Source: Alloyangia pacifica (GTDB lineage Bacteria; Pseudomonadota; Alphaproteobacteria; Rhodobacterales; Rhodobacteraceae). Taken from it: a stretch of 64,000 nucleotides of DNA. A program made the translations under genes and the position numbers. Position 1 is the first letter of the stretch; each line of letters opens with the position of its first letter. The notes under the pieces were generated by a model that saw only the letters and a list, made by a program, of their open reading frames with translations, searched no databases and was not told where the DNA came from. The stretch is taken from assembly GCF_020524285.1 (NCBI RefSeq), contig NZ_JAIVKX010000011.1, positions 124,001 through 188,000 of the forward strand. Reading direction: 5' to 3'. Shown here one piece after another: positions 2,377 through 35,800 of this stretch.

Positions 2377-3339
2377 ATGAATTTGCGCGTTGAGCACCAT
2401 GTTCGGCTGCCTGACTTCATCATCGGGGGAGCGCCGAAATGCGGCACCACCTCCCTTCATTTCATACTTGCCCAGAACCCATCTGTCGGGATCCCCGACG
2501 ACGAGATTCATTTCTTTGATGCCGACGATCCGATCGGCCATCCCGACTTTCTGTTCTGCGGCCCCGACGGGCTCGACTGGAACGACCCCCGGCCCGGCAA
2601 CCCCGAGAGCCTGAGCTGGTACGCGTCACATTTTGATGCGTTTGCAAATCATCCCTGCGTCGGCGAGGATTCCACGATCTACCTGCAGTCCGAGGTTGCT
2701 GCCGCGCGGATCGCCGAGACGCTTCCGCGCGTGAAGCTGATCTTCATGCTGCGCGATCCGGTCAAACGGGCCTACTCGCAATACTGGCATCTGGTGACCC
2801 GCGGACGCACCAGCTGCAGCTTCGAGCAAGCGCTCACCGCCTTTCCGTCGATCATTCTCGGCTCGACCTACGCGCCCCACCTGCGCCGCTATCTCGACGT
2901 GTTCGGCCCCGAACGCGTTCGGATCGGCCTGTTCGAGGATTTTCTCGCCGACCAGCAGGGTTTCGTCGACGGCATGTCCGATTTCCTCGGCGTGCCCCGC
3001 ATGCCGGTCGCCCGGACCAGCAGCTGGTTCAACCGGACCTACTATCCCACGCACCCGCGCCTGCAGCGCGCTGTGAACCGGATCAGCAGTCGCATCGTGC
3101 GCAACCAGTACCGCAATCACTTTGGCAAACGCAGCGGCGCTCAGGAGACTGCCCGCAGCAAGCTGCATTACTACTGGTTCCGCTACGCCCACCCGGTCTT
3201 CCTGAAATCGCCGGAGCAGCCGAAAATGGACCCGGGTGTGCGGCGCTACCTCGATCAGCATCTGTCCGCACGCAATGCCGGGCTGTCGACCTTGCTCGGG
3301 CGCGATCTGTCCACCGTCTGGCCGGGCTTTACCACATGA
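2377..3339 (+). CDS. Sulfotransferase (PAPS-dependent)
   Basis: Predicted cytoplasmic transfer of sulfate from PAPS to a carbohydrate hydroxyl or amine. The 320 residues carry the 5'-phosphosulfate loop GAPKCGTTS (residues 18-26, Lys21 catalytic) and the 3'-phosphate motif RDPVKRAYSQY (from Arg126), as in the heparan N-deacetylase/sulfotransferase-like family. Length is normal for a single-domain bacterial member. It is the first gene of a tightly coupled plus-strand operon; its TGA overlaps the ATG of the next glycosyltransferase (ATGA), so the polymer made here is probably sulfated. Substrate unknown. Confidence 0.88.
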   Translation: MNLRVEHHVRLPDFIIGGAPKCGTTSLHFILAQNPSVGIPDDEIHFFDADDPIGHPDFLFCGPDGLDWNDPRPGNPESLSWYASHFDAFANHPCVGEDSTIYLQSEVAAARIAETLPRVKLIFMLRDPVKRAYSQYWHLVTRGRTSCSFEQALTAFPSIILGSTYAPHLRRYLDVFGPERVRIGLFEDFLADQQGFVDGMSDFLGVPRMPVARTSSWFNRTYYPTHPRLQRAVNRISSRIVRNQYRNHFGKRSGAQETARSKLHYYWFRYAHPVFLKSPEQPKMDPGVRRYLDQHLSARNAGLSTLLGRDLSTVWPGFTT

Positions 3340-4496
3340 GCCGCAGCGGTTTCGACATCCTCGTGCTCACCGATCCACGATTCTCGGGCGGCACCGCCTC
3401 GGCGGTGATCAGCGACGTTGCGCGGTTTTCCGAACTCGGCCTGTCCGTGGGACTGATGCCGATCAGGTCGCGATTCTTCGACGGAACCGACGACCTGGAG
3501 AATCCGCACGTGCTGAAGCTGCAGGACCTGCCGGGCGTGAGCCTCGCCACCGGAACGGCGAGCGCCGAGCTGACCTTGCTGCATCATCCCCTCGCCTTCT
3601 TTCATGGGCTGCACACCCGAGCAGAGCTGACCACCCGCCGCGCGGTGGTGGTGACACACCACCCTCCGTTCCGCGGCGACGGCTCGCTCGAATACAACCC
3701 GCTGACAGTCAACCGCCAGATTTCCCGCGCCTTCGGCTGCCATCCGTGGTGGGCCCCCGTATCCGGAACGGTCCGCGCCCAGCTCCGCAGCTTCGCACCC
3801 CTGCTGACGCTGACCTCCGAGGACTGGACGAACACTTTCGATCCAGACGAGTGGCGCAGCACGCGACCGGCCTTCAGCGGGCCGCAGGCCACCGTCGGGC
3901 GGCATGGCCGCGCAGACAGCCTCAAATGGCCGGACGATCTTGCTGCAATGACCGCACCGCTCTCGCCCGGCCCGGCATGGCGGACGCGGGTGATGGGCCT
4001 GCCGGACGACGTCCGGCGCGCGCTGGGGCCGGCCGCCGATGCCTGGGAGATCGTGCGTTTCAACGCGGAGCCGGTCGGCCAGTTTCTGGAGAGCCTCGAT
4101 GCTTTTTGCTACTTCTACCATCCGCGCTGGATCGAGGCCTTCGGGCGCACAATCGCGGAGGCGATCCTGATGGAGCGCCCCTGTGTTCTCGATCCGCGCC
4201 TGCGAGCCAATTTCGGCGACCTCGGGCATTATTGCGCCCCCGGCGACGCCGCCGACTGTCTCGCGCGCCTGCACGAGAGGCCCGAAGAAAGCAGGCAACA
4301 CGCCCGCGACGCGCGGGAGCGCGCGATCACGCGTTTCGGCAATGCCAGCGTCGACGCACGGTTGCGGGCGCTGATGTCTGACCCCGGCATGAGATCTCGG
4401 CACGGAGCGAAGTCGACCTCGGCGTCGACCACCCTGCGCAAGATCGTCGGCCTTGCGCGGCGCCAGAGGGCCCGCACCACCCCGGAGATCGTCTGA
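3336..4496 (+). CDS. Glycosyltransferase, GT-B fold (GT4-like)
   Basis: 386 residues with an N-terminal Rossmann-like half (ILVLTDPRFSGGTASAVI) and a C-terminal nucleotide-sugar site, EAFGRTIAEAILMERPCVLD, that matches the conserved E-x7-E region of GT4 enzymes. It probably adds one sugar to the lipid-linked repeat unit at the cytoplasmic membrane face. Coupled by ATGA overlap to the sulfotransferase and by TGATG to the following GMC oxidoreductase. Donor and acceptor cannot be read from the sequence. Confidence 0.7.
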   Translation: MSRSGFDILVLTDPRFSGGTASAVISDVARFSELGLSVGLMPIRSRFFDGTDDLENPHVLKLQDLPGVSLATGTASAELTLLHHPLAFFHGLHTRAELTTRRAVVVTHHPPFRGDGSLEYNPLTVNRQISRAFGCHPWWAPVSGTVRAQLRSFAPLLTLTSEDWTNTFDPDEWRSTRPAFSGPQATVGRHGRADSLKWPDDLAAMTAPLSPGPAWRTRVMGLPDDVRRALGPAADAWEIVRFNAEPVGQFLESLDAFCYFYHPRWIEAFGRTIAEAILMERPCVLDPRLRANFGDLGHYCAPGDAADCLARLHERPEESRQHARDARERAITRFGNASVDARLRALMSDPGMRSRHGAKSTSASTTLRKIVGLARRQRARTTPEIV

Positions 4497-6067
4497 TGCC
4501 CTATGTGACACAAGAGACCGCCTGCCAGATCCATTACGATCTATGTGTGATTGGCGCCGGTGCAGCCGGACTCGCCGTTGCCGACTCTGCCCGGCAGAAC
4601 GGGCTTTCGGTGCTGATCGTGGAGCGCGGCGGCGAGATCGCCTCGGTGCCACGGCGCGAGCCGCTGTTGCCCGTAGGGTCGCCCCACGATCCGGCCCACA
4701 AGACCACGCGCGAGGGCCTGGGCGGAACGCTGAGCATCTGGGGCGGACGCTGCGTGCCCTTCGATCCCGAGGACTTCTCGGACCGCCCCGGGCTCGGGGC
4801 GAGCTGGCCGATCAGCTACGAGGACTACGCCGCCTGGGTGCCCGCCGCCTCTGCCCTGTTCGAGGTCGAGCCCCGGTACAACGTGGCAACGCCTGCCGAC
4901 TGGCCGACGCTCGAAGGCATCCGAATGGACACCGTCGAACTGCTCAGCCGGCACTGGTTCCCCGCCGAATTGCGGGACCGGCTGACCGGGCCGAACGGCC
5001 CCGACATCCTGCTCGACACCGAGGTGACCGGCATGAGTTGGTCGGACCGCCGGGTGCGGGCGATCAGCGTAACCGGCTCTGCGGGCGCCGTCAGCATCAG
5101 CGCGGCGGATGTGGTCCTGGCCTGCGGTGGCCTGCAATCCACCCAGCTGCTGCTCGAAGAGGAGCGGCGCAAGCCCGGCAGGCTGCGCGGTGCCTCCTGG
5201 CTGGGGCGCGGCTACATGGGACATCTCACCGGCAGCATCTCGGAGATAACTTTCCGCGATGCGCAGACCGCCGCCGCATTCACCTATAATGCGCGCCCCG
5301 ACAGCGCTCCGGGGCGGCGCCGCTTCCTCATGCTGCCGCCCGATGGTCCGCATATCGCGCTGTGGATCGAGAGCATCGCGCCCGGCGACCCACGCCACGG
5401 CAGCGCGGAAATCTCGGCGAAAACGCTGCTCCGCGGCGCCCCCTCCGGCACATGGGCCGCGCATCTGGCGAATGTGCTGCGCAGGCCGACCGAGCCGCTG
5501 AGCGGCCTGAGAGCCGCGATGCGCCGCGCGCGGCACCCGGACCAACGGTTTCCGGACCGGCTGATCGCGCGCCGGCCAGGGCCCTACAGGCTGGCCTACC
5601 ATGCTGAGCATCTGCCGAGCCCGACCAGCATCGCGGCCCTCTGCCCACGGCCCGGACCCGATGGAACCCGGCCGCTGCGCATCGATTTCGACTATGGCGC
5701 AGACACCATCCAAGGTACGGTGGAAGCGCATCGCAAGCTGGCACGGGCGCTCGAGGACAGCGGTTTCGCACGGCTCGAGCTTGACCCCGACGATGATGTC
5801 CTGGCGCAGCGCGTGCGCGCCGCCGCGCGCGACGGCTACCATCAGATCGGGCTGACGCGGATGTCGTGCAGCGCCGACAAGGGCGTGGTCGACGAAGGCT
5901 GCAGGGTCTTCGGGACAGACAATCTCTACGTCGCCTCGGCCAGCGTCTTCCCGACGTCGAGTCAGGCCAACCCGACCCTGACCATCGTTGCGCTTGCGCT
6001 GCGGCTTGCCGACCGGCTTGTGGCCAACCAGCAGCGCGGTACATCTGCCGGCAGTGCGGTCGCATGA
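4496..6067 (+). CDS. GMC-family FAD-dependent oxidoreductase
   Basis: 523 residues. It has an N-terminal FAD Rossmann motif (VIGAGAAGLAVADSARQNG, near residue 18) and a C-terminal GMC block with the active-site region YHQIGLTRMS and ASVFPTSSQANPTLTI. The family oxidises alcohols or sugars with FAD. It sits inside the polysaccharide operon, with a 1-base overlap upstream and a 4-base overlap with the polymerase, so a sugar or lipid-linked sugar oxidation step is likely. It lacks the Cys-rich insertion seen in the second GMC enzyme of this window (42478-43887) and has no adjacent Tat-exported small subunit. Confidence 0.8.
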   Translation: MPYVTQETACQIHYDLCVIGAGAAGLAVADSARQNGLSVLIVERGGEIASVPRREPLLPVGSPHDPAHKTTREGLGGTLSIWGGRCVPFDPEDFSDRPGLGASWPISYEDYAAWVPAASALFEVEPRYNVATPADWPTLEGIRMDTVELLSRHWFPAELRDRLTGPNGPDILLDTEVTGMSWSDRRVRAISVTGSAGAVSISAADVVLACGGLQSTQLLLEEERRKPGRLRGASWLGRGYMGHLTGSISEITFRDAQTAAAFTYNARPDSAPGRRRFLMLPPDGPHIALWIESIAPGDPRHGSAEISAKTLLRGAPSGTWAAHLANVLRRPTEPLSGLRAAMRRARHPDQRFPDRLIARRPGPYRLAYHAEHLPSPTSIAALCPRPGPDGTRPLRIDFDYGADTIQGTVEAHRKLARALEDSGFARLELDPDDDVLAQRVRAAARDGYHQIGLTRMSCSADKGVVDEGCRVFGTDNLYVASASVFPTSSQANPTLTIVALALRLADRLVANQQRGTSAGSAVA

Positions 6068-8280
6068 GCCTGCACTTCACCTTCCTGGGTCGGACCTACG
6101 GCATCTCGCCCGAAACCCGCGACCACGTCCTGGTCACGCTCTGGGTGATCGTGACGTTCCGCCAGTTCGACAACGACGAACTCATTCTCTACCCGCTGGC
6201 GCTCTACTTCTTCTGGGCCTTCATCCGGGACTTCCGCGAGATCTTCGTGCTCATTGCGCGGTCCTACGTGCTGTGGCTGTTCCCGATCTGGTGGTTTCTC
6301 TCGCTCAGCTGGGGCATCGAGACCGAGGAAATTCTGAAGACCGGGCTGCAGCTCGTCCTGACGCTGATGATCTGCTACGGGGCGGTGCTGCGACTCTCGC
6401 CGCGCCAGCTCCTGCTTTCGGTGTTCATCGCAGCCGGCCTGGCCGGCCTCATGAGCTTCCTTAGCGATCCGACCGGCAGCACCGCCAAAGGGGTGTTCCG
6501 AAGCAAGAATGCCCTTGGCACCGCGATGGTCTTGCTCTGGGTCTCCTCGCTGTGCATGGTGCTCGATCCCGGCTTCTCCCGGAAGTGGCGGCTGGCGGCG
6601 CTGGTGGGCATCCCGCTGTCGCTCTACCTGATCCTGTTGGCCCACAGCGCCACCGCATCGCTCTTCGCGATCGGCACCTTCGCCACGATCCTGTTCCTGC
6701 GGTTCCGGAGCGTGCTGGCGCCCCGGGCCACGCTTTGCCTGCTGTTCCTGACCGTGGGGCTGGGCCTTCTCGGGGGCATCTATGCGGCAATGACGATGAT
6801 CGAGATCGACCCCGTGGGGCAGGTGCTGCACGCCTTCGGCAAGGACACCACGCTCACCGGGCGCACGGTGCTGTGGCAATACGCGACCGAAGAGATCCGT
6901 CAGCACCCCCTGCTTGGCGTCGGGCACGGGGGTTTCTGGAAACCCGATGATGCATTCTCCGTCGCGCGACGCATCTACGACGAGTTCTTCAAGCACTACA
7001 ACTCCAACTTCTCGTTCCACAATTCCTATTACGAAGTGGCGGTGCACCAGGGCCTCATCGGGCTGGCGCTCATCTCAATAGCGACCCTTTGGATCCTCGC
7101 TCGCGTGCTGCCCGTCGCCTTCTTTGCAAGCGATATGCCAGCCATCTTCTTTTCCTGCATTGCGCTGATCAATACCGCGATCAGTTTCACGGAAGTCGCT
7201 CTCATGGTCCCCTTCCAGTTGCTGTTCATGCTCTTCGTCATCGGTGCGCTGCTGACCCTCAAGGAGCGGCCCGCGCTACAGCAGCGCCCCGCCGCGATGC
7301 GGCACCGGACGCCACCGAGGCCCCGCACCGGCATCTCCTCTCTCTCCTGCGGCGCAGGGCTTGCGCTGCTGCTGAGCTGCGCCGTTGTCCCCAGCGGCGC
7401 GCCAGCACAGACCGCGGAAGGGTTCTTCGACGACTTCGACACCTTCGACCGAGACCGTTGGCGGATCTCCGACGGTTGGGCCAACGGGTCATGGCAGAAC
7501 TGCATTTGGAGTTCGGATCGCCTGTGGGTCGAGGAAGGCATCGCGACGCTGAGTCTCGTGCGGCTCGATCCCGCTCCCGAAGACACCTCTGCACAGGGCA
7601 CGGCCCCGGAGCCGGCGCAGCCCACCGACAGCGACGCTGCCGAAGAGACCTCCCCCCCCGAACAGGCTCCTGACGCGGCTTCCGACGAACAGGATGAGCA
7701 GGTTCCGGGCCAGGTTCCGGGAGAGGACCGCGAAGAGGCCGCGCCAGAAACGGTCTATGACTTCGCTTGCGGCGAGTTCCACACCCGGACCCGATATACG
7801 CATGGCACCTTCGAAGCGCGGCTTCGCACGGATGTGGCCTCGGGAATAAATGCCGCCTTCTTCACCTACATAGGCCCCAGCCAGAACGAGCCGCACGACG
7901 AAATCGACGTGGAGGTCCTGACCCGCAAGACCGACCGGGTCAGCCTCAATACCTATGCCAACGGCGAGCCTCGCCATGGCACCGTCGTGCCCGTACCGAA
8001 CACCACCGATGCGGAGTACAACGACTACGCCTTCGTCTGGGAGCCCGAGCGGATTCGCTGGTATCTCAACGGCGAGCTGGTGCACGAGGCGACAGGCGAG
8101 CTCCCGACCCAGCCGCAGCGAATCTACTTCAGCCTCTGGAGCACCGACAAATTGACCAGCTGGATGGGCCCCCTCGAATACCCCGACCGACCGGTGGAAA
8201 TGTTCATCGACTGGGTCGCCTACACACCCCCGGGCGAGACCTGCCTGTTCCCGGACTCGATCACCTGTCACGAAGACTAA
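6064..8280 (+). CDS. Wzy/O-antigen-ligase-like polymerase fused to GH16 glycanase
   Basis: One uninterrupted 738-residue frame. Residues 1 to about 400 are polytopic membrane sequence of the O-antigen polymerase/ligase type (ExoQ-like), including TGRTVLW and LGVGHGGF in the large loop region. Residues about 412-450 hold Arg-rich sequence, then a hydrophobic segment ending LLLSC. An acidic Pro/Glu/Asp-rich linker (about 500-560) follows, then a GH16 beta-glucanase domain with catalytic motif EIDVE (Glu613, Asp615, Glu617) as in ExoK. The start overlaps the upstream stop (ATGA). An in-frame ATG at 7297 could start a separate secreted GH16 protein, but it has no ribosome site. As a fusion, polymerisation and periplasmic cleavage would share one chain. 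Confidence 0.85.
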   Translation: MSLHFTFLGRTYGISPETRDHVLVTLWVIVTFRQFDNDELILYPLALYFFWAFIRDFREIFVLIARSYVLWLFPIWWFLSLSWGIETEEILKTGLQLVLTLMICYGAVLRLSPRQLLLSVFIAAGLAGLMSFLSDPTGSTAKGVFRSKNALGTAMVLLWVSSLCMVLDPGFSRKWRLAALVGIPLSLYLILLAHSATASLFAIGTFATILFLRFRSVLAPRATLCLLFLTVGLGLLGGIYAAMTMIEIDPVGQVLHAFGKDTTLTGRTVLWQYATEEIRQHPLLGVGHGGFWKPDDAFSVARRIYDEFFKHYNSNFSFHNSYYEVAVHQGLIGLALISIATLWILARVLPVAFFASDMPAIFFSCIALINTAISFTEVALMVPFQLLFMLFVIGALLTLKERPALQQRPAAMRHRTPPRPRTGISSLSCGAGLALLLSCAVVPSGAPAQTAEGFFDDFDTFDRDRWRISDGWANGSWQNCIWSSDRLWVEEGIATLSLVRLDPAPEDTSAQGTAPEPAQPTDSDAAEETSPPEQAPDAASDEQDEQVPGQVPGEDREEAAPETVYDFACGEFHTRTRYTHGTFEARLRTDVASGINAAFFTYIGPSQNEPHDEIDVEVLTRKTDRVSLNTYANGEPRHGTVVPVPNTTDAEYNDYAFVWEPERIRWYLNGELVHEATGELPTQPQRIYFSLWSTDKLTSWMGPLEYPDRPVEMFIDWVAYTPPGETCLFPDSITCHED

Positions 8281-8346: not shown

Positions 8347-9441
8347 TCAGGCGCTCGTCGCACAGTCCGGGCCGGCGTTTGAGGCGCAATACCCCTGGGC
8401 CGGAGCCGGCTCCAACAACCGCCGTTCGCGGATGAACCCCGGCAGTTCCGCTTCGAGTCGTCCGGCGAGCCGGATCAGGGCACCGCGGGCATAGAGCTCC
8501 GCCGCCCGGCGCGACGACAGGGTGCCGCCGGCATTCGCCGCAAGATGCGCCTTTGCCAGACCCTCGGCCCTTGCTTCCGCCGAAAAGTGGAACGCGCTGT
8601 TGCTCAGGAAGCCCGCGCGCTGCGCAACGGTGGCATCGTGCCAGACGACGCCCTGCAGCTCGACGATGTTGCGCTTGAGGTCGAGCTCCCGCCGAATCTC
8701 GGACTTCTTCAACCCATTGTTGCGCGTGGAGCCCGCGCCGTTGTCGGCCCAGACCGCCTTCGGCTCCAGGCCGATGAAGATCGGCTCACGGATCGAGAAG
8801 GTGCGCAAGTGCTCCGCGAAAGTCACGTTGCACGCGTAGCCGACCTCGAGATCCGAGCGCGCGCGCCGTGACCAGAAAAGGCCGCTGTTGGAAACGCCGT
8901 GAAACACGAGCAGGGCCATGCGCAAGGTCTGGGGCGACATCACACCCTCGCGGTAGCGCTCGTCCAGCACACCGCAATCGAGCAGCCGGGCGCGCTCGCT
9001 TGCGGATTCCAGTTCGACGAACTGGTTGCGCAAAACGATTTCCACCTTGTGCCGGCGGCAATCCTCTATGCCCTGCGCCATATACTCGGGCAGCATAGCG
9101 TTGTCGTCTTCGATGATGCAGAAGTAGTCCGCGTCATGGGGGTTTTGCCGCGAGAAGCATTGGTCGATATTCCGGCTCGCGAATTTCTGGCCGGGATTTC
9201 GCGTGTAGCGGATTCTCGAATCGTCCAACTCCGCAACCACCGAGCGTGCCGACCCCTGCATGTCGTCGTCAAATACGTCGCAGACCCAGTTGCGCCAAAC
9301 CTGAGCGCGGATGCTCTCGAGACAGCGACGCAGCGCCTCCGGGCGGCGGTAGGTCGGCGTCCGTACATGAACGAGCGGCGTCCGCTCGGCGCGGGCCGGC
9401 ACGCTCAGGCGGTCGGTCGAAGCCTCCTTCGCGGCGCTCAT
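8347..9441 (-). CDS. Glycosyltransferase family 2
   Basis: 364 residues with a GT-A start (VHVRTPTYRRPEALRRCLES), an acidic site DVFDDD and the metal-binding region CIIEDDNAM. It probably transfers a sugar to the growing repeat unit in the cytoplasm. Its ATG overlaps the TGA of exoM (ATGA), so the two are co-transcribed and translationally coupled. It converges on the polymerase-GH16 gene with 66 bases between stops. No close named homologue is recognised. Confidence 0.78.
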   Translation of the reverse strand: MSAAKEASTDRLSVPARAERTPLVHVRTPTYRRPEALRRCLESIRAQVWRNWVCDVFDDDMQGSARSVVAELDDSRIRYTRNPGQKFASRNIDQCFSRQNPHDADYFCIIEDDNAMLPEYMAQGIEDCRRHKVEIVLRNQFVELESASERARLLDCGVLDERYREGVMSPQTLRMALLVFHGVSNSGLFWSRRARSDLEVGYACNVTFAEHLRTFSIREPIFIGLEPKAVWADNGAGSTRNNGLKKSEIRRELDLKRNIVELQGVVWHDATVAQRAGFLSNSAFHFSAEARAEGLAKAHLAANAGGTLSSRRAAELYARGALIRLAGRLEAELPGFIRERRLLEPAPAQGYCASNAGPDCATSA

Positions 9442-10337
9442 GCTGTCTCTCCGTAGACTTCCCGGCGGGGTGGCGCGATACAGCCGGACATGACCCCGAT
9501 ATGGAACGCCGCGCGCATGAACCAGAAAATGCAGCGGTCACTGCGCGTTACCGACAGAAGTGTCCGGACCGCGCAATATATGGCCTTTACCAGACTCTGC
9601 CCGAGCACCGCCGCGCGTTTCGCGATATCGTCCCGAGCCGCACAGCTTCCATAGATCACGCCGCCCGCGTAGCGCCGGCGCAGCAGCCAGCCAAAGTTCA
9701 TGCGCGCCGGGGTGACATGTTCGCGCACACGCGCCTCTTCGGCAATCGCCATTTCCACGCCAGCGCGGTGCAGGCGGAAGAAGAAATCGACGTCCTCCCC
9801 CCCAGTCCGCCCGTAGGCCGGATCGAAGCGCGCCAAAGCGATCTCGGCATTCCCCAGATCCAACAGGACATTGCTGGTGTAGCCGGTCTCGACCAGGCCG
9901 CTGCGATGCGTCGGGATATTGGAATGGAAATCATTATCGCGCATCCATCGCGGCGCGCTCTCGGGATAGACCGCAAGGGCCGGGCCAAAGACCACAGAGG
10001 CGGCTGATTGCCGCCAAACCGAGACCAGGCGCAGGATCCATCCAGGATCGGCCACCTCGTCGTCATCTATGAAAATGAGGCAATCCCCCCGCGCAGCTTC
10101 GAGACAGGCATTCCTCGCGATGGAAATATTCCGGGCGGGCGCATGGATATAAGTCAGGGGCAACTGCAGATACCTCGCATGCGCGGTGATGGCCTGCCGA
10201 TGCACAGGCGTCTCGTCATTGTCGGCGACAAGCACCTGCAGGGTTGCATCCGGTGGCAACTCCTGACCCGCAACGCTGTCCAGGGTGGCCAGCAAACTCT
10301 CACGCCTGAAGGTGCATATCCCCACAACTATGCGCAT
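9438..10337 (-). CDS. exoM: ExoM-like glycosyltransferase family 2
   Basis: 299 residues closely following the layout of succinoglycan glucosyltransferase ExoM: the opening IVVGICTFRRESLLATLDS, the NISIARNACLEAARGD block, the DDDE metal site, WMRDNDFHS, ETGYTSNVLLD and GGEDVDFFFRLHRAG. ExoM adds a beta-1,4 glucose during succinoglycan repeat assembly at the cytoplasmic membrane face. It is first in a two-gene minus-strand unit with the downstream GT2. The match to ExoM is from memory of the family; the exact linkage is inference. Confidence 0.8.
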   Translation of the reverse strand: MRIVVGICTFRRESLLATLDSVAGQELPPDATLQVLVADNDETPVHRQAITAHARYLQLPLTYIHAPARNISIARNACLEAARGDCLIFIDDDEVADPGWILRLVSVWRQSAASVVFGPALAVYPESAPRWMRDNDFHSNIPTHRSGLVETGYTSNVLLDLGNAEIALARFDPAYGRTGGEDVDFFFRLHRAGVEMAIAEEARVREHVTPARMNFGWLLRRRYAGGVIYGSCAARDDIAKRAAVLGQSLVKAIYCAVRTLLSVTRSDRCIFWFMRAAFHIGVMSGCIAPPRREVYGETA

Positions 10338-21397: not shown

Positions 21398-23101
21398 CTA
21401 TTCGCGGATCTCGATCTGATCCCAGGTCAGCGTGGTCACGCCGCTGTCGGCGGAAATCTCGTCGAGCCAGTCCGGCACGGCAAAGCCCGGCCAGCAATCT
21501 GCGCCCTGGCGGAACAGCACCGGCACGAACTCCGCCCGGAACCGGCGGTCGCTGAAGATGCCGTCGAAGGCATCGTCGTTGCTGGCCCAGAACACCTGCT
21601 TGCCATCGCCCAGGCATTCCCGGTTGAAGGTTGCCAGAACGTCGGGGCGGTTTGCCCAGAAGGTCGCTTTGTCAAAGCTCGCGTGGTTGCGCATGCCGGT
21701 CTTCACCGGGTTGGCATGTGCCATTTCGGTCCAGTTCAGGCCGAGAAGGTCGTAGATGTAACCCTCGTAGGCCAGCGCTATGCCGCCGGCCGGTCCGACG
21801 CCAATCGACGGCAGGGGCGTCACCCCGTTGAGATAGGTGCCGAACTCCAGCCCGTCGCGGGTCAGATCAAACTCCTTGGTGATGTCAAAGCGCGATTGGT
21901 AGTACTGCATCCAGCCGATGCCGACGACGAGCAGCCCCGACGCCAGCATCGGCGCGCGGAAGACCCCGGCGCCGCACACCCGGACGAGGCAGAGCGCAAC
22001 GCCCAGGGCGAACGCCGCCGGCAGCAGCGGCATGATCGGCTGGTAGAAGCGCCATTGCGCGAAATGGTCTCCGCCAAGCCCGGCATAGACCGCCAGGAAC
22101 CCGAAGACCCCGGCCGCGGCGACGACCACACCCCGCGCGCCGGGCTGGCCACGCAGTGCGCCGAGCAGGCCCCAAAGTGCCGCAGCACTCCAGGCCGCGA
22201 CGAAGACCGACACGAAGGGCGACCCCAGCACGAAGCTGAGCGCGTACTTGCTCCCGTCGATGATGTCTTGCATGCGGTCCGACGAGACCTTGGCGTAGAA
22301 GGTGTTCGGGAAAGGCTGCCCGAAATAGCTCAGCCGGAACAGGCTGACTGCGGCGAAGGCGGTAAGAGCCAGCAACACCGCCGCCCCGAGCCGGAGGCGC
22401 AAACCCCGGTCCAGCAATGCTGACAGCGCCAGAAGGCCCACTGCAACCGCAATCCCCTCGGGCCGGATCAACGGAAGCGCAACGGCGGCGGCATAGACCG
22501 AGGCACCGGGTGCCGCCTCTTCCGCCTCGACGCAGCGCACCAACTTGGAGATGAGCAGCAGCGCCATGCACGACCAGAGCGCCGTCTCCATCATCGTCCA
22601 GACGCTCCACAGGAAATAGGCGGGGCTGGCTGCGAGAAACACGCAAAGCGCCAATGTGGCGTGCTGCCCGGACAGGCCCAGCCGCTCGGCAAGGCAGCGC
22701 AGCAGCCGCAGCGCCGAGTAGGTCGCCAACCAGGTCAGCAGACCTGTCACCAGCAGGATGGTCACCTCGGGCGTGACGGTCAGCCGGTAGATCAGCGCGA
22801 CCACCATCGTCCACAGGAAGCTGGTCGAGCCTTCGACATGTTCGCCGCCGGCGTTGTAGACATACCCAAGCCCGTTCGCGATATTCTCCGAGTAAGAGCG
22901 GGTGATCGCCGCATCGTCGATGCCGATTGCGGGCACACCTCCGGCGAGCATCGTGGCAAGCGCCGTGCCCAAAAGCGTCAGGAGCGCCGCGGCGAGAAGG
23001 TTGACAACCCCGCTTCGATCCAGCGCCATCCACTGCCGCTGCCGAAAGGCGCCATGCGACAGCGGAACATTGTCATGTCGGGTCGTGAGGTTCGACATCA
23101 T
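21398..23101 (-). CDS. GT-C fold membrane glycosyltransferase
   Basis: 567 residues with about ten hydrophobic segments and a soluble C-terminal tail. The first periplasmic loop carries the GT-C acidic signature DDAAITRSYSENIANGLG, then VYNAGGEHVEGSTSFLW, the pattern of AftB-like and related polyprenyl-phosphate-sugar transferases. It would use a lipid-phosphate sugar on the periplasmic side to modify a glycan. A GGAGG lies just before tandem ATGs (23101, 23098). Given the DPA-type operon at 50457-54404, polyprenyl-phosphoryl-arabinose is a possible donor; that is inference. Confidence 0.75.
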   Translation of the reverse strand: MMSNLTTRHDNVPLSHGAFRQRQWMALDRSGVVNLLAAALLTLLGTALATMLAGGVPAIGIDDAAITRSYSENIANGLGYVYNAGGEHVEGSTSFLWTMVVALIYRLTVTPEVTILLVTGLLTWLATYSALRLLRCLAERLGLSGQHATLALCVFLAASPAYFLWSVWTMMETALWSCMALLLISKLVRCVEAEEAAPGASVYAAAVALPLIRPEGIAVAVGLLALSALLDRGLRLRLGAAVLLALTAFAAVSLFRLSYFGQPFPNTFYAKVSSDRMQDIIDGSKYALSFVLGSPFVSVFVAAWSAAALWGLLGALRGQPGARGVVVAAAGVFGFLAVYAGLGGDHFAQWRFYQPIMPLLPAAFALGVALCLVRVCGAGVFRAPMLASGLLVVGIGWMQYYQSRFDITKEFDLTRDGLEFGTYLNGVTPLPSIGVGPAGGIALAYEGYIYDLLGLNWTEMAHANPVKTGMRNHASFDKATFWANRPDVLATFNRECLGDGKQVFWASNDDAFDGIFSDRRFRAEFVPVLFRQGADCWPGFAVPDWLDEISADSGVTTLTWDQIEIRE

Positions 23102-24691: not shown

Positions 24692-27600
24692 ATGGCTTCA
24701 GACCGCATCCAGGACCTCGTTGGTCGTGGTAGCACGACGTTGGAGGCCGCGATCGAGTCGCAGCAGGCGCTCCTTCAAAGCGCGAAGATGCATGCGCACT
24801 CCAATGACGCCGACAAGAGAAGCGACCATCTGGCGATGCTCGACCTCTTCCCCGACGCCAGCGATCCGGATGTCGCCGTAGCGGTCACTGGCGGTTCCTG
24901 GTTCGATCCCTCGACCTGGGCCGACGGTCAGGTTCCCGGCGACGGCCAGAAGGTCTACATCCCGCAGGGCATTTCCGTGGTCTACGACGGTGTCAGCGAT
25001 GCTCGCCTCGACCGCGTCGGCGTCGATGGCGAACTGCATTTCGCGGTCGATACCGACACCAAGATGGTCGTCGACACGCTGCTGACCAATTCGACCTCCG
25101 TGTTCACCATGGGCACCGAAGACAATCCCGTGCAGGCCGGGGTCAGCGCAGAGATCGTCATTCACCGCGACAATGGCGCGATCAACACCGCGGAAGACCC
25201 GAACCAGCTGTCCAAGGGCATCGTGGCGCATGGCACCACCCGGATTGCCGGCCAGGACAAAACCGACCACCTGCGCACCGCCGAGGATCCGCAGGCCGGC
25301 GACACCAGCCTGATCCTCTCCGAGCAACCCTCGGGCTGGCAGATCGGCGACAAGATCGTCGTCGCGGGCACGAAGCTTACCGGGCTCAACGAATTTCAGG
25401 ACGAAACCGCGATCGTGACCGGCATCGAGGCGCAGTCCGATGGCACCTATCGCGTCACGCTCGACCGCGCGCTGCAATACGACCACAGCACGCCCGAGGA
25501 TTTCGCCGGCGAGTCCTTCTCGGTTCCGGTCGCCAACTACACCCGCAACATCCGTATCGGCACCGAAACGACCGACGACGCCTACACGCTCGACGGCAAC
25601 ACCGTTCCGATCGACGAGCGCGGGCATGTCATGTTCATGCACAATGGTGACGTCTCGGTGCAGAACGCCGAGTTCTACGAACTGGGCCGCACCGACAAGT
25701 CGGTCGCGATCGACGACGACACCAACGTCGCCTCGCGCTATGCCCTGCACTTCCACCGCACCGGCGGCCAGACCGGCGAAGACCCCGCGCTCGCCGAGGG
25801 CAACGCGGTCTGGGGCAGCCCCGGCTGGGGCATCGTGCACCACGACTCCAACCTCGATGTGATCTCCAACGCCGTCTACGGCGTAAATGGCGCGGCCATC
25901 GTCGCCGAGGCCGGGACCGAAACCGGGATCTGGGCCGACAACATCACCATGAGCACCACCGGCTCCGGCCCGGGCCCGAAGTTCAACCCCGAGGACAGCG
26001 GCTCGACCACGCACGACGGCTACCTCCAGCAGTATGAGAATGACGCCTTCGGCCAGGGGGTCGGCTTCGCGTACAAGTCGCGGATGCTCGAGAACTTCGA
26101 CAACGTCGCGGTCAGCTCGTCCGGCGCAGGTTACCTGTTCTGGCCGATGGGCACCGACGACGGCTCGGGCCGGCACATGAACTCCGACACCGACGCCTTC
26201 GAGGCGACCTACGGCTACGATCCCTTCTATGGCCAGGACGAGTCGAGCGTCTCCAAGGTGCCGATCCGCTTCTTCGCCGACAACGAAGCGCTGGTTACCC
26301 CGATCGCCTTTGCCACCACCTCCGACAAGCGCCCGTCCGACACCGACCTGTCGTCGATCATCGAGCACATGGTCGGCTGGGAAGTGAACTTCGGCGTCGT
26401 GGGCTGGTATCAGCGCGACTACCTGATCAAGGACAGCGTTTTCGTCGCCTCCGAGGACTCGCTCTACCAGGGCACGAGCAAGGGTGTGCGTGGCCACGAG
26501 TTCCACGAGGTGAAGCTGGTCGACAATGCCTTCAAGGGCTTCGAGGTCGGCATCTGGGAAGACAACAACGACCAGGGCAACGAGTACAATCACGTCATCC
26601 TCGGCAATCTGTTCGAAGACAACGGCGTTGACATGGAGCTCGACAGCGACGCCTCCGGCAGTTTCTACATCGTCTCCGACAACTCGGCGGATTGGGCCAG
26701 TGGCTATGATGTCGGTCACCTCGAGGCGCAGGTGAACCTCGACAAATCCGACCTCGTGCTCACCGCCTGGTACGACCACTTCTCCGTCGTGGTCGACAAG
26801 GTCGATACGCTCGGCGCGAAGCAACTTACCTTCGGCTCCGAGGATGACCGCAACGGCGGTGCCAGCCAGAAGAGGTGGTGGAAGGAAAACGCCGCGAACG
26901 ACGGCTACTACACCGACGGCGGCTCCTATTTCCTGATGGTCGACATTCTGGTGGGCGACCGCGTCACCGGCACGGCCGGGGTGATCTCGGTACCGGTCGA
27001 GCTTGCCTTCGTGACAAGCCCTGCGGATCTTCCGGAAGGCGCGACAAACCTCGGCGCCCTGCCTGCCTTTGACAACTCGATCACGCTGGTCGATGTGCGC
27101 GCCCCCGGCGAGGCGGGCAACCTGCTCGACGAAGATCGCTTCGACCTCGGAAGCGGCGACAGCAGCACCGACACCGGAACCGATGGTGGCACCGACACCG
27201 GAACCGACGGCGGCATTGACACCGGGACCGACGGCGGAACCGACGGTGGTACCGACACCGGGACCGACGGCGGCACTGACACCGGGACCGACGGCGGCAC
27301 TGACACCGGGACCGACGGCGGCACCGACACCGGGACCGACGGTGGTACCGACACCGGGACCGACGGTGGTACCGACACCGGCACCGACACCGGGACCGAC
27401 ACAGGAACCGGTACGGAAACCGGTGGTGGCACCGACTATGCCGTGTTCATCGAAGCCGAAGACATGGTCCTCACCAACTACCAGATCGAGAGCAAGGGCA
27501 GCATGTCCGGCAAGGAGATGATCCGAGTCTCCGATCGGAGTATCGGCGAAGGGAACGCCTCGCACACATTCAATGGACCGACCGGGACCTACGACATCAA

Positions 27601-28303
27601 GGTTGGCTACCTCGACGAAAATGACGGCCAAAGCCGCATCGAGTTGATGGTGGCCGGCCAGACCGTCGAAAGCTGGAACCTTACCGCAGACGACAACGCG
27701 GTCCACGTAGGCCTGGCTGAGGGTGTGTCGATCGCATCGGGCGACGAGATCGTTGTCGTCGGATACAACCGGCACGGCGAGCTCGCTCGGGTCGATTACG
27801 TCGATATCTCCGGGGTTTCGGACTCGGCAACCACCGAGCCGGACATCGAGGACGAGATCGAGGCCCCCGTCGGCGGCGGCGGCTTCGCGGCGCACGTCGA
27901 GCTGGAATCCATGACACTGGACAACTACGTCGTGGAGCGCAGCCCGGATGCCTCCGGAGGTGAGCGCGTGAAGGTTGCGTCGAAAGCCGACGGCGCGGGT
28001 GTCGCAAGCTTCACCTTCGACGGCCCGGCCGGGACCTATGACCTCGACCTCGGCGTCTTCGACGAAGCAGATGGCGCCGGCGAGATCGCGATCCTCGTGG
28101 ACGGCAAGGAGGTCGGCTCCTGGGCCCTCGACGCCGACACCCACGCGGCCCGCGAGCTGTCCCTCGAGGATGTCGTGATTGGCGAAAACGCGACGATCTC
28201 GATCGTCGGGCAGTGGGACCGCGGCGAATACGCCCGTGCCGACTACCTCGAGATCACCTCGACCGATCTCGATGTGACCGCGACGGACGAGTTCCTGCTC
28301 TAA
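24692..28303 (+). CDS. Large surface protein: G8 domain, right-handed beta-helix, TDTGTDGG linker, two CBM-like domains
   Basis: 1203 acidic residues with no N-terminal signal peptide. In order: a short helical N-terminus; a G8 domain from about residue 67 (GGSWFDPSTWADGQVPGDG); a long beta-helix region (about 280-700, with YALHFHRTGG and GSPGWGIVHHDSN); a low-complexity linker (about 826-910); and two related beta-sandwich modules at about 916-1045 (FIEAEDMVLTNYQIESKG) and 1065-1195 (HVELESMTLDNYVVERSP) resembling CBM6/35-type modules. The end, TDEFLL, is acidic then hydrophobic, as in type I secretion signals, but no RTX repeats are present. Ribosome site GGAG lies seven bases before ATG. 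Probably binds or cleaves polysaccharide at the cell surface; activity unknown. Confidence 0.8.
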   Translation: MASDRIQDLVGRGSTTLEAAIESQQALLQSAKMHAHSNDADKRSDHLAMLDLFPDASDPDVAVAVTGGSWFDPSTWADGQVPGDGQKVYIPQGISVVYDGVSDARLDRVGVDGELHFAVDTDTKMVVDTLLTNSTSVFTMGTEDNPVQAGVSAEIVIHRDNGAINTAEDPNQLSKGIVAHGTTRIAGQDKTDHLRTAEDPQAGDTSLILSEQPSGWQIGDKIVVAGTKLTGLNEFQDETAIVTGIEAQSDGTYRVTLDRALQYDHSTPEDFAGESFSVPVANYTRNIRIGTETTDDAYTLDGNTVPIDERGHVMFMHNGDVSVQNAEFYELGRTDKSVAIDDDTNVASRYALHFHRTGGQTGEDPALAEGNAVWGSPGWGIVHHDSNLDVISNAVYGVNGAAIVAEAGTETGIWADNITMSTTGSGPGPKFNPEDSGSTTHDGYLQQYENDAFGQGVGFAYKSRMLENFDNVAVSSSGAGYLFWPMGTDDGSGRHMNSDTDAFEATYGYDPFYGQDESSVSKVPIRFFADNEALVTPIAFATTSDKRPSDTDLSSIIEHMVGWEVNFGVVGWYQRDYLIKDSVFVASEDSLYQGTSKGVRGHEFHEVKLVDNAFKGFEVGIWEDNNDQGNEYNHVILGNLFEDNGVDMELDSDASGSFYIVSDNSADWASGYDVGHLEAQVNLDKSDLVLTAWYDHFSVVVDKVDTLGAKQLTFGSEDDRNGGASQKRWWKENAANDGYYTDGGSYFLMVDILVGDRVTGTAGVISVPVELAFVTSPADLPEGATNLGALPAFDNSITLVDVRAPGEAGNLLDEDRFDLGSGDSSTDTGTDGGTDTGTDGGIDTGTDGGTDGGTDTGTDGGTDTGTDGGTDTGTDGGTDTGTDGGTDTGTDGGTDTGTDTGTDTGTGTETGGGTDYAVFIEAEDMVLTNYQIESKGSMSGKEMIRVSDRSIGEGNASHTFNGPTGTYDIKVGYLDENDGQSRIELMVAGQTVESWNLTADDNAVHVGLAEGVSIASGDEIVVVGYNRHGELARVDYVDISGVSDSATTEPDIEDEIEAPVGGGGFAAHVELESMTLDNYVVERSPDASGGERVKVASKADGAGVASFTFDGPAGTYDLDLGVFDEADGAGEIAILVDGKEVGSWALDADTHAARELSLEDVVIGENATISIVGQWDRGEYARADYLEITSTDLDVTATDEFLL
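27167..27421 (+). repeat. 24-bp tandem repeat coding Thr-Asp-Thr-Gly-Thr-Asp-Gly-Gly linker
   Basis: About ten imperfect copies of a 24-base unit encode TDTGTDGG inside the G8 protein, between the beta-helix and the first CBM-like domain. Copies differ mostly at third positions, so the reading frame is under selection. Acts as an acidic flexible spacer, possibly Ca-binding; copy number is likely to vary between strains. Confidence 0.9.
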
Positions 28304-29727: not shown

Positions 29728-31743
29728 ATGGTGCACCCAGACTATCGCCCGGATATCGACGGGCTGAGATCCCTTGCGGTCATCCCGGTGGTCTTCTTCC
29801 ACCTCGGCCTCACCTGGATGCCCGGCGGCTTCGTCGGGGTCGATGTATTCTTCGTAATTTCCGGCTTCCTGATTACCCGGATCATCGCCCGCGAGATCGG
29901 AAGCGGCAGCTTCTCCATCCTCGATTTCTACGTCAGGCGGATCCATCGTATCCTGCCCGCCCTGCTGGTGATGATCGCCGTAACGCTGGCGATCACCAGC
30001 GCGTTTTTCGCACCCATCGACCTTTACAATGCAGCGCAGAGCGCTGCGGCGGCCGTGCTCTTCTCGGGCAACATCCTGTTCTATCTCGAGGCCGGCTATT
30101 TTGACGCCGCCTCCTACCAGAAGCCACTGCTGCACACTTGGTCGCTGGGCATCGAAGAACAGTTCTACATCTTCCTGCCACTGCTGCTGATGCTGCTCGC
30201 AAGACTGCGCTGGCGCATGGACATCTTCGTCGCGGTGCTCACCGCCGTCTCCCTGGCGCTCAGCGTGACGACCACCGTCAGCCAGCCGACCGCCGCCTAC
30301 TACCTGTTGCCATGGCGCGCCTGGGAGCTCGGCCTCGGAGCGCTGCTGGCGCTTGGGTTCCTGCCCGCGTGGCGCAGCAGGCTTGTGCGGGAGGCGGCTA
30401 CCTGCTGCGGCCTGCTGCTGATCCTCGGCTCGGCGCTGGTGATCACCCGGCAGACCGCCTTTCCCGGCTGGGCGGCCCTCGCCCCGACAATCGGAGCCGC
30501 GCTGATCATCCATGCCGGCAGCGCGGGCGAGTCCCGCGTCGGGCAGCTGCTCTCGACCGCGCCAGCCGTCTGGATCGGGCGGCTTTCCTATTCGCTCTAC
30601 CTCTGGCACTGGCCGGTGATCGTCGTTTTCGTCTATCTGCGCATGGCCTTTCCCGATGCGGCCGAGGCGACAGGGCTCTTCGCGCTTTCGCTCGCGCTGA
30701 GTTGGCTGAGCTGGCGCTACGTCGAGCAGCCGTTTCGCAACCCCGCAGCGGCACGCGGCCGGCGGACGGTCTTTGTGACCGCGGGAGTGGCCATGGCAGC
30801 GGTGATCGCCGGCGCCGGGGTTCTGGTGGTGAGCAAGGGATTTCCCGGCCGCCTGCCAGCCGATGCGCAACGCATTGCCGCGTTCAGCCTCGACTATCCG
30901 GACCGGATGCCAGAGTGTTTCTGGGACGTGATCGACGAAAAGTCCTGGTCCGAGCCCTGCCATTTCGGAGACGGGCAGGTGCCGGCCGAGATTGCGGTCT
31001 GGGGCGACAGCCATGCGCCAGCCCTGATGCCGGCTCTCGACGGCGCCGCGAAGGACATCGGCCTGTCGGTGGCGCTCTATGCAAACGGCGGCTGCCCCCC
31101 GATCCGAAACTTCCAGGTGTACTGGGTCGGCCAGGAACACGACTGCCTGGATTTTGTCACCCAAAGCTACCAGTCGATCCTCGCGAACCCGAACTTGAAG
31201 CTGCTGGTCATCATGGTCAGGCCGGCGATCTACACCCAGGGCTGGACCCCCTACGGGCTGGCCGAGCGTGACCGCACCGATCTGCTGATCGGCGACAAGA
31301 GCGCGCCCCTGTCCTCGGAAGCGGATCGGACCGGCTACTTCCTCGAAGGGATGGAGCAGACCATTCGCAGCTTCCAGGGCACAGGCACGAAGATCGCACT
31401 GGTCTACCCGCTCCCAGAGGCCGGATTTTCAGTGCCTGACAGCATCGTTCGAAACGCGATCCTCGGTGCGGAGCCCGCCGACGTCAGCCTGCCGCGCACG
31501 CTCTACGACGGGCGCACGTCCGATGTCATCGCCGCCTACGACCGGCTGGTCGAGGCGTATGATCTGCTGCCGGTCCGCCTCGACCAGATGCTCTGCGATG
31601 ACGACAGCTGCAGCCTGACGCTCGATGGCGACCCGCTCTATCGGGACTCCAATCACCTCAACAAGACGTCGGCGCAGCGCCTGGCCCCGCAGTTCGCCGC
31701 GGCCCTGAGGCTCGCACGGCAGGAGAAGCACGTTGAAAACTGA
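29728..31743 (+). CDS. Membrane O-acyltransferase with SGNH domain (OafA/YrhL type)
   Basis: 671 residues. The N-terminal half is an acyltransferase-3 domain with about ten membrane helices: YRPDIDGLRSLAVIPVVFFH, GFVGVDVFFVISGFLIT, RRIHRILPALL and LLHTWSLGIEEQFYIFLPLL. After about residue 380 comes a periplasmic SGNH domain (VWGDSHAPAL, ending DSNHLNKTSAQRLAP, with the catalytic Asp/His). This architecture transfers acetyl groups across the membrane and onto extracellular glycans, so it probably acetylates the exopolysaccharide. Ribosome site AGAGG precedes ATG 29728. Overlaps the next gene by 11 bases. Confidence 0.9.
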   Translation: MVHPDYRPDIDGLRSLAVIPVVFFHLGLTWMPGGFVGVDVFFVISGFLITRIIAREIGSGSFSILDFYVRRIHRILPALLVMIAVTLAITSAFFAPIDLYNAAQSAAAAVLFSGNILFYLEAGYFDAASYQKPLLHTWSLGIEEQFYIFLPLLLMLLARLRWRMDIFVAVLTAVSLALSVTTTVSQPTAAYYLLPWRAWELGLGALLALGFLPAWRSRLVREAATCCGLLLILGSALVITRQTAFPGWAALAPTIGAALIIHAGSAGESRVGQLLSTAPAVWIGRLSYSLYLWHWPVIVVFVYLRMAFPDAAEATGLFALSLALSWLSWRYVEQPFRNPAAARGRRTVFVTAGVAMAAVIAGAGVLVVSKGFPGRLPADAQRIAAFSLDYPDRMPECFWDVIDEKSWSEPCHFGDGQVPAEIAVWGDSHAPALMPALDGAAKDIGLSVALYANGGCPPIRNFQVYWVGQEHDCLDFVTQSYQSILANPNLKLLVIMVRPAIYTQGWTPYGLAERDRTDLLIGDKSAPLSSEADRTGYFLEGMEQTIRSFQGTGTKIALVYPLPEAGFSVPDSIVRNAILGAEPADVSLPRTLYDGRTSDVIAAYDRLVEAYDLLPVRLDQMLCDDDSCSLTLDGDPLYRDSNHLNKTSAQRLAPQFAAALRLARQEKHVEN

Positions 31744-32868: not shown

Positions 32869-35800
32869 ATGGCTTATTACACTTCCTTCGAAGATTCCTT
32901 CGATGACCTCAACCTCGTCGACTGGCAGATTTCGAGCTATGTGAACGCTGGAAACTGGATTGATACAGCTTGGTCGCCGACCCATGTGGCCGCTGCGAGC
33001 GGAACCATCAATTTGAGCCTGACCGACTCCGCCCTATCGGGGAAGACTTATACAGGCGGCGAAATACGCGCCGCCGATCCCACGTATTTCGGGCGCTACG
33101 AAATTGTCATGCAGCCGGCGGCGGACGACGGCACGCTGTCGAATTTCTTCGTCTACACCGGCACGCCCTATGGCACCGAAGCCAGCGAGATCGATATCGA
33201 GTTTCTCGGCAATGACACCACCAGCGTCCTGCTGACCTACTACACGCCCGAAGGTTCCGTCGGCGAGACGGTCGATCTCGGTTTCGATGCCGCCGACGGG
33301 CTGCACACCTATTGGATCGACTGGCAGCCCGACCGCATCGCCTGGTACGTCGATGGCACTTTGCTGCTCGAGGTCGCGGAGTCCGAAATTGGCTTCCCGC
33401 AGGTCCCCTCCTACATGTTCATGAGCATCTGGACGGGCAACAACAGCTTCAGTGGCACCCCGGCCAGCGGCGTGTCTGCCACCGCGATCTATTCGGAAGT
33501 CAGCTATGCCGCGCGCAGCGCGCCCGTGGCGATGGACGACAGTCTCGAGGTCGCAAGCGGCAGCAGCGGCACGGTTGACCTGCTGGCCAATGACGGCGTC
33601 ATGGGTGCCACGCTGCTGCCCGGCACCGTGGCGGTGGTCGACGGCCCGGCGCATGGCACGCTCTCGATCGATCCGGTCACCGGGCAGGCGACTTACGCCG
33701 CAGATACCGGCTACAGCGGCCCGGACAGTTTCACCTACACCGTGTCCGACGGCAGCGCGCTTTCGAACACGGCCACGGTCGCGCTGGTCGTCTCAGACGG
33801 AAACGAAGAAAACGTTGCCGCGTCCGATACGCAGATCAGCTCCGTGGAACTCTCCGCGCTGAGCCTCGCCACCACCGCCGCGGCGCCGGCGACGGGCGGC
33901 GATGCGGGGCTGGCGCTGAGCGCCCAGGGCAGCGGCAGCTCCGCGCTCGACATCGCCCAGATCACCCTTTCGGGCAGCTTCACCATCGAGGCCTGGGTCA
34001 AACTCGACAGCACCGCAACCGGCGGCATCGCGCGGCTCAACGACGACCAGGCCATCGACTTCAGCAGCGGCTACCTGCAGCTCTATTCCAAGGGCAGCGG
34101 CACCCGCACCCGCGTCGAGGCGACCAGCCCCATCGCGCTCGACACCTGGACCCATTACGCCGTCACCCGCGATGCCTCGGGCACGCTGCGCATCTACATC
34201 GACGGCGTGCTCGACGCCACGTCCACCACCGCCTGGACCAACACGCTGCGCCTCGACGCGCTCGCCGGCGGCGCCAGCGGCGCCAGCGCCGGGCTGTTCG
34301 ACAATATCCGCATCTGGACCACCGAGCGCAGCGCCGCCGAGATCGCCGCCGCCATGGGCGACACGCTGGACGGCAGCGAGGCCGGCCTGCTGCGCGCCTA
34401 CAGTTTCGACACCGCCGGGACCATCGTCGACGACACCGGCAACTCGGCCAGCCTCGCGGTGCCCACCGACATGACGCTGGTCGCCTCCGACGCCCCGATC
34501 GGGTCCTCGGGCACGCCCGACACCGGGGACACCGGGGACACCGGCGGCGACACAGGCGATACCGGGAGCAGCGGCGAGACAGGCGGCGACGACAGCGCCG
34601 ATACCGACGGCAACCTGACCCTCGCCGCGCCCGACACCGAGATCACCGCCGGCGAAAGCAACGCCGTGGCCCTCTCCGTCTCCGGCATCGACGCGGATGC
34701 CACCGCCGTGGTCACCGTCTCCGACGGCACCACCAGCGTCACCGGGGGCCTCGCCCAGGACGGCAGCCTCACGCTCGACCTCTCGGGCCTCGCCGACGGG
34801 ACGCTCACCACCTCGGTCACCGCCACCGACACCAGCGGCAACACCGCCACCGCCGCGGGCCCCGCGCTCAGTCTCGACAGCAGCACTTCGGCGCCCGTGA
34901 CAGACGACAGCGCCGATACTGACGGCAACCTCACGCTCGCCGCGCCCGACACCGAGATCACCGCCGGCGAGAGCACCGCCGTGGCCTTCTCCGTCTCCGG
35001 CCTCGACACGGATGCCACCGCCGTGGTCACCGTCTCCGACGGCACCACCAGCGTCACCGGGAGCCTCGCCCAGGACGGCAGCCTCACGCTCGACCTCTCG
35101 GGCCTCGCCGACGGGACGCTCACCACATCGGTCACCGCCACCGACACCAGCGGCAACACCGCCACCGCCTCCGGCCCCGCGCTCAGCCTCGACAGCAGCA
35201 CCGCGCCGGCGACGGGCGGCGATGCGGGGCTGGCGCTGAGCGCCCAGGGCAGCGGCAGCTCCGCGCTCGACATCGCCCAGATCACCCTCGCCGGCAGCTT
35301 CACCATCGAGGCCTGGGTCAAGCTCGACAGCACCGCAACCGGCGGCATCGCGCGGCTCAACGACGACCAGGCCATCGACTTCAGCAGCGGCTACCTGCAG
35401 CTCTACTCCAAGGGCAGCGGCACCCGCACCCGCGTCGAGGCGACCACCCCCATCGCGCTCGACACCTGGACCCATTACGCCGTCACCCGCGATGCCTCGG
35501 GCACCCTGCGCATCTACATCGACGGCGTGCTCGACGCCACCTCGACCACCGCCTGGACCAACACGCTGCGCCTCGACGCGCTCGCCGGCGGCGCCAGCGG
35601 CGCCAGCGCCGGGCTGTTCGACAATATTCGCATCTGGACCACCGAGCGCAGCGCCGCCGAGATCGCCGCCGCCATGGGCGACACGCTGGACGGCAGCGAG
35701 ACCGGCCTGCTGCGCGCCTACAGTTTCGACACCGCCGGGACCATCGTCGACGACACCGGCAACTCCGCCAGCCTCGCGGTGCCCACCGACATGGCGCTGG

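Follow-up and report, generated by a model that had tools for sequence, protein, structure and literature searches.

A Wzy-type polymerase and an ExoK-like GH16 glycanase share one open reading frame at an exopolysaccharide locus of Alloyangia pacifica

The fused frame and its two domains

The stretch of DNA analysed here, referred to as the window, comprises 64,000 nucleotides (nt) of Alloyangia pacifica (assembly GCF_020524285.1, contig NZ_JAIVKX010000011.1, positions 124,001 to 188,000). On its + strand, one open reading frame runs from the ATG at 6064 to the stop at 8280 and encodes 738 residues, with a polymerase of the Wzy type followed by a glycanase of family GH16. Wzy_C (PF04932) is found at residues 185-337 with 60.7 bits against a Pfam gathering cutoff of 31.7 (expectation value E 1.7e-16), and Glyco_hydro_16 (PF00722) at residues 564-712 with 105.6 bits against a cutoff of 22 (E 2.6e-30). 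Because both domains exceed their cutoffs in one and the same frame, a chance frame was rejected. In this assembly the frame is genuine, and it is a rare fusion of known parts. What is new is that a Wzy-type polymerase and an ExoK-like glycanase, a known pairing, here occupy one frame. The original prediction, made from the letters of the window, of both proteins in a single open frame with an intact EIDVE motif is therefore borne out. The parts of the frame are as follows.

6064 to 8280, + strand: fused open reading frame, 738 residues, Wzy_C polymerase plus GH16 glycanase (open reading frame, translation, Pfam)
6064 to 7296, + strand: residues 1-411, the polymerase half, with nothing missing in comparison with homologues that are not fused, and with a WaaL-like fold over residues 14-404
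7258 to 7296, + strand: 39-nt junction that separates the conserved LLT codons from the former GH16 start codon; its counterpart in A. pacifica DSM 26894 measures 50 nt and finishes with the ATGA overlap (both counted by hand)
7297 to 7407, + strand: signal-like peptide of the glycanase with its inherited start codon (residues 412-448); hydrophobic core at about 424-442, AxA before Q449
7408 to 8277, + strand: mature GH16 domain, residues 449-738, a licheninase/ExoK-like jelly roll
7567 to 7755, + strand: acidic insertion, predicted to be disordered, inside the GH16 domain
7900 to 7914, + strand: GH16 catalytic motif EIDVE

The WaaL-like helical fold of the polymerase half was obtained by a fold search with the predicted model against known structures, in which the O-antigen ligase WaaL (7tpg) is 14% identical. 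The fold search performed better than a profile search against PDB sequences, which returned a single weak and unconvincing row (ArcB, E 0.065). Twelve helices were counted by us from the secondary structure of the AlphaFold model; a simple hydropathy scan did not separate 12 distinct helices. They are followed by a positively charged loop at residues 397-423 (seven K/R vs one D/E) and by one further hydrophobic segment. The topology of the WaaL structure is taken as background for this arrangement. With 12 helices by count, the positive loop and one more hydrophobic segment, the predicted topology places the GH16 part in the periplasm, which supports the location suggested for it originally. 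In WzyE, a distant polymerase, a C-terminal tag lies on the cytoplasmic face (PMC10030265).

In the joint AlphaFold model of the whole chain the predicted local distance difference test (pLDDT) value is <50 over residues 413-566, and the GH16 half was therefore folded alone. It then forms a full licheninase jelly roll, with target-normalised template modelling (TM) scores of 0.93-0.95 to the lichenases 1gbg, 3o5s and 1u0a and pLDDT >90 in nearly all blocks. The EIDVE motif occupies residues 613-617, opposite EIDIE in the alignment with 3o5s. Of its five positions, all but the V are invariant in an 8-row GH16 alignment, and E, D and E across the 30 rows of a larger one. We take these acidic residues to be the catalytic residues of GH16. 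Against the NCBIfam ExoK equivalog (NF052392) the GH16 half scores 305.5 bits, below the curated cutoff of 350, so that it is named ExoK-like rather than ExoK; the GH16 proteins of A. pacifica DSM 26894 (326.4 bits) and of locus L044 (333.2 bits) likewise fall below this cutoff.

An acidic stretch at about residues 502-564, with pLDDT of 43-70, had been predicted to link the two domains. It lies between GH16 strands: the first strands (GH16 residues 43-89) and the remainder (156-310) form one jelly roll around it, and five of the eight alignment rows do not have it. The inter-domain linker was rejected on these grounds in favour of a predicted disordered insertion within the glycanase. An insertion at this position is present in three of the eight aligned GH16 proteins, namely the fused protein, that of A. 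pacifica DSM 26894 and that of genome G174. In the last of these (locus L073, gene near 9134-10114, - strand) the variable loop consists of tandem QTEAG units, and this GH16 loop may change by repeat expansion.

The junction and its unfused counterparts

The locus of A. pacifica DSM 26894 (genome G005) is syntenic with the window: all 18 query proteins from the first 22 kb of the window were matched within 19.9 kb. Genome G005 belongs to the same genus and is assigned to this strain because the polymerase DNA of L060 is identical to that of the named contig L076. The same genes are found there in the same order, with the same catalytic residues and a similar signal-like peptide; the polymerase is 63% identical and the GH16 protein 46-52% identical. 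In contrast to the single frame of the window, they are two separate genes in two frames, and the TGA stop of the polymerase (415 residues) overlaps the GH16 ATG as ATGA. Overlaps of 4 nt are typical of unidirectional gene pairs, where they support termination-reinitiation, and are over-represented among neighbours whose products form complexes (PMC10666635). The distance from the LLT codons to the GH16 ATG is 50 nt in DSM 26894 vs 39 nt in the window, which is 11 nt shorter, and ATG 7297 is in phase with the polymerase. The base after it is C (ATGC vs ATGA), so that the stop and the overlap are both lost.

M412, at nt 7297, is the inherited GH16 start codon. A signal-like peptide begins there, with a basic n-region and a hydrophobic core, and ends in AxA before Q449; none of these elements has been lost, although the peptide now lies inside a longer chain. 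Counted from the GH16 start codon, 42 residues precede the first FF of the mature domain in the window vs 43 in DSM 26894, and both GH16 N-termini are signal-peptide-like. The N-terminus of mature lichenase 1gbg (QTGGSF) aligns with Q449 TAEGFF, directly after the AxA. The hydrophobic segment at about 424-442, which had been described as a connector between the domains, is thus part of the glycanase's own N-terminal signal-like peptide. A literature search on internal signal peptides gave nothing.

Other examples of the joined architecture, which the original prediction proposed to look for in related genomes, were sought, and none was found. A scan of genome contigs gave 25 loci; in all the loci numbered 145, and 136 were searched, the nine left out all being from the window's own genome. 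A fusion was present in 0 of the 50 distinct loci holding both a polymerase and a GH16 gene. In 35 of these 50 the stop-to-stop frames of the two lie within 400 nt, and 33 of the 35 pairs are on one strand. GH16 comes first in 31 of the 33 and the polymerase, as here, in two: A. pacifica DSM 26894 (L002) and a Marinibacterium metagenome-assembled genome (L034). The counts of 50, 35, 33, 31 and 2 were identical in an earlier scan of 125 loci. It is noted that the pairing recurs across loci while the gene order differs.

The whole chain was also searched against sets of 61 relatives and of 20 genus, 394 family, 385 class, 390 order and 398 phylum genomes, which overlap and each include the window's own genome. 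No other match spanning both halves was found, from the 61 relatives to the 398 phylum genomes; in the family, class, order and phylum sets at most two best candidates per genome were scored, at E limits of 1e-25, 1e-12, 1e-40 and 1e-8, so that fused chains built from different or more divergent halves might have escaped notice. Near relatives of the window's genome may be absent from the sets. Among 321 matching plasmid records, 40 of them listed, none has one place covering 80% of the chain. Phage records did not match the chain, and among viral contigs 14 stretches fit a pattern but none was confirmed as a relative; a phage origin was set aside for these reasons. Two kinds of lead proved to be unfused. 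In G947 the GH16 domain lies in a 676-residue open frame, but the polymerase adjoins it in another frame. Around the long polymerase frames of G886, G1276, G1120, G1305 and G1161, a stretch of 7-8 kb yielded no GH16 hit at E 1e-5. The G1276:C9 example (L140, about 3614-6697, - strand) is a Wzy_C-like match in a 1028-residue stop-to-stop frame free of a GH16 match. In the literature consulted no Wzy-GH16 fusion was described; Sphingomonas LM7 has separate genes (PMC11340318), and the terms 'fused', 'GH16', 'modular' and 'fusion' are absent from PMC10920833. As far as these searches reach, the fusion is private to this lineage.

The surrounding locus

The genes next to the fused frame are the following.

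1 to 1893, - strand: Wzz-type co-polymerase, divergent, continuing past the left edge of the window, 752 residues in all
2377 to 3339, + strand: sulfotransferase, probable first gene of the operon (open reading frame, Pfam)
3336 to 4496, + strand: gene without a family assignment in Pfam or NCBIfam; its syntenic position is shared by several relatives
4496 to 6067, + strand: GMC-type oxidoreductase, sharing its last 4 nt with the start of the polymerase (open reading frame, Pfam)

The fused frame closes this run of genes, which overlap by 4, 1 and 4 nt from the sulfotransferase onward. The nearby Wzz-type regulator of the original prediction is confirmed by Pfam matches to Wzz and GNVR above cutoff, with AAA_31 below cutoff. 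A Bac_transf sugar transferase, several glycosyltransferases and a Poly_export protein are also found around the frame, and a Wzx-like Polysacc_synt_3 protein is encoded just outside the window. Since all of these surround the fused frame, the locus is read as a Wzx/Wzy-type exopolysaccharide (EPS) locus. It is this setting that leads us to read the N-terminal half as a polymerase rather than a ligase, although it may have ligase activity; given the Wzx-like protein and Wzz, it would act on lipid-linked repeat units.

Several other proteins of the locus are worth recording. At 24692-28303 (+) a 1203-residue protein carries G8 and CEMIP beta-helix domains. At 29728-31743 (+) an Acyltransferase 3 domain is fused to an SGNH domain, perhaps as an EPS O-acetyltransferase. 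Two similar polytopic-looking proteins of the same locus, one at 21401-23101 (-), which has no Pfam match, and one outside the window (L109, 3786-5516, -), share the stretch GIDDAAITRSYSENIANGLGYVYNAGGE. The only other GH16 domain found in the genome is in a 1888-residue protein at 32869-38535 (+), together with Laminin_G_3, Ig-like, GDSL lipase and RTX repeat regions. Its marginal match to a clostridial toxin receptor-binding family (24.4 vs 23.8 bits) seems to reflect no more than a common lectin fold. We see in this protein a resemblance to the secreted glycanase ExsH, plus an esterase-like domain.

Fate of the fused chain

We consider it somewhat probable that the frame arose by a lineage-private stop loss in a translationally coupled operon, and that it encodes a polyprotein whose periplasmic GH16 part is probably freed by signal peptidase I. 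The last two genes of a Wzx/Wzy exopolysaccharide operon (sulfotransferase, the gene at 3336, GMC oxidoreductase, polymerase and GH16) would have passed from split to fused when a junction shorter by 11 nt brought the glycanase frame into phase with the polymerase and removed the stop. The ribosome would then make one chain, consisting of the 12 polymerase helices, a cytoplasmic basic loop and the old signal peptide, which would serve as an internal export signal, cross the membrane and put GH16 in the periplasm. Cleavage by signal peptidase I between A448 and Q449 would give the polymerase and a free periplasmic glycanase at about 1:1, the same product pair as in the unfused relative but in fixed supply, and obligatory read-through would replace coupled translation. 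Cleavage at this position is the simplest expectation because the n-region, the core and the AxA are all kept, and processing into two proteins is probable because the signal-like peptide at the junction is complete, with its AxA aligned to the mature lichenase start. The cleavage, its 1:1 stoichiometry and action on the polymer of the locus itself are what we infer from these features.

Read-through appears to be the likeliest route to the glycanase because ATG 7297 has almost no Shine-Dalgarno pairing. The anti-Shine-Dalgarno pairing energy of the 20 nt before it is +0.3 kcal/mol; it is -6.1 kcal/mol, in a bulged duplex, at the GH16 start of A. pacifica DSM 26894, and -2.7 to -6.9 kcal/mol at all 13 other assumed starts tested in the window. 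For 2000 random 20-mers of the window, used as background, the quartiles are -4.1, -2.8 and -1.7 kcal/mol. The independent start at 7297, raised originally as an objection to the fusion, is made less likely by this near-absent pairing.

Several points weigh against stop loss followed by cleavage. A weak Shine-Dalgarno sequence is soft evidence, with one quarter of the random 20-mers pairing at -1.7 kcal/mol or weaker, and several real-looking starts do not surpass the random median, which is -2.8 to -3 kcal/mol. The cleavage is a prediction from the AxA rule and from the mature end of the homologous enzyme. A. pacifica DSM 26894 is the only close relative with this gene order and a similar GH16 protein, the other polymerase-first locus (L034) having a GH16 protein only about 31% identical. 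Codon usage backs the frame before about 7255 and after about 7315 but is uninformative in between.

It is unlikely that the fusion stays intact, with the old signal peptide as a thirteenth membrane helix and the glycanase held beside the polymerase exit, possibly inside a Wzz ring, where it would cut the emerging chain and set its length. The single frame, the intact EIDVE, the predicted periplasmic side and the Wzz protein encoded nearby are all consistent with such an arrangement, and in another system WzyE sits in a Wzz octamer (PMC10030265). However, a canonical AxA is kept where mature lichenase begins, the spacing from the old signal peptide to GH16 is no longer than in the unfused enzyme, and the joined architecture is seen nowhere else even though polymerase and GH16 are common neighbours (0/50 loci fused, 33/50 within 400 nt on one strand). 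An uncleaved, tethered cutter would fit the geometry. That one bifunctional protein sets length in cis, a permanently joined polymerase-glycanase trimming each extruded chain from its thirteenth helix, perhaps in the Wzz ring, is in our judgement rather improbable. Of the earlier idea of one chain that extends and cuts the polymer, the single frame and the predicted periplasmic GH16 stand, but the signal-like peptide with its AxA makes two processed proteins probable, an outcome that the original prediction itself listed among those that would refute it, and no relative searched has the joined form. Conservation gives no support for selection of a length-setting device, as the joined architecture occurs in no relative searched.

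A one-base assembly or sequencing error in 7258-7296, in a strain that truly has two genes, is unlikely. The closest relative does have two genes, and codon usage cannot vouch for the frame at about 7255-7315. A one-base shift, however, would not restore the ATGA overlap, the base after the ATG being C; the shifted polymerase frame would run to 7373 or 7671 and overlap the glycanase by about 80 or about 380 nt. An error is therefore less likely than a true change. In addition, no homopolymer in the junction is longer than CCCC, and the genome's quality rating is 100% completeness with 0.82% contamination.

The idea that ribosomes restart at ATG 7297, making most of the glycanase separately with the fused chain as a by-product, is very unlikely. 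In its favour, ATG 7297 is an inherited start codon and AAGGAG lies upstream of it at 7261-7266. Between this motif and the ATG, however, there are 30 nt, more than normal Shine-Dalgarno spacing allows; the duplex energy in the 20 nt upstream is that given above; and ribosomes finishing the polymerase no longer terminate at the junction, so that termination-reinitiation is lost.

The division of labour has precedents. In the succinoglycan system of Sinorhizobium meliloti, ExoQ is needed for high-molecular-weight polymer and the endoglycanase ExoK cuts the polymer; these are separate genes there and one frame here (PMC1403797). S. meliloti also has a second secreted glycanase, ExsH (PMC1403797), and the window has a second GH16 protein with RTX repeats. 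In the Wzy-type promonan EPS cluster of Sphingomonas LM7, the GH16 protein PrmQ has a predicted signal sequence, as here; unlike here it is a separate gene, and the upstream prmP that it overlaps by 29 bp encodes a glycosyltransferase, not a polymerase (PMC11340318). Its deletion gives rugose, non-mucoid colonies which still bind Congo Red, and the authors suggest that PrmQ cuts the polymer during secretion (PMC11340318). By analogy with PrmQ and ExoK, the fused GH16 may have a polymer-cutting role.

The adjacency of polymerase and GH16 genes is recurrent in alphaproteobacterial EPS loci, with 33 close same-strand pairs among the 50 distinct loci that have both, and a natural fusion which keeps the signal peptide makes it testable whether the enzyme cuts the growing polymer at its polymerase. 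An intact chain would fix the cutting at the point of extrusion. With cleavage, the frame would be a natural bacterial polyprotein processed by signal peptidase, and would show how coupled overlapping genes fuse. For annotation it carries a warning, that two domains in one frame do not necessarily end up in one protein.

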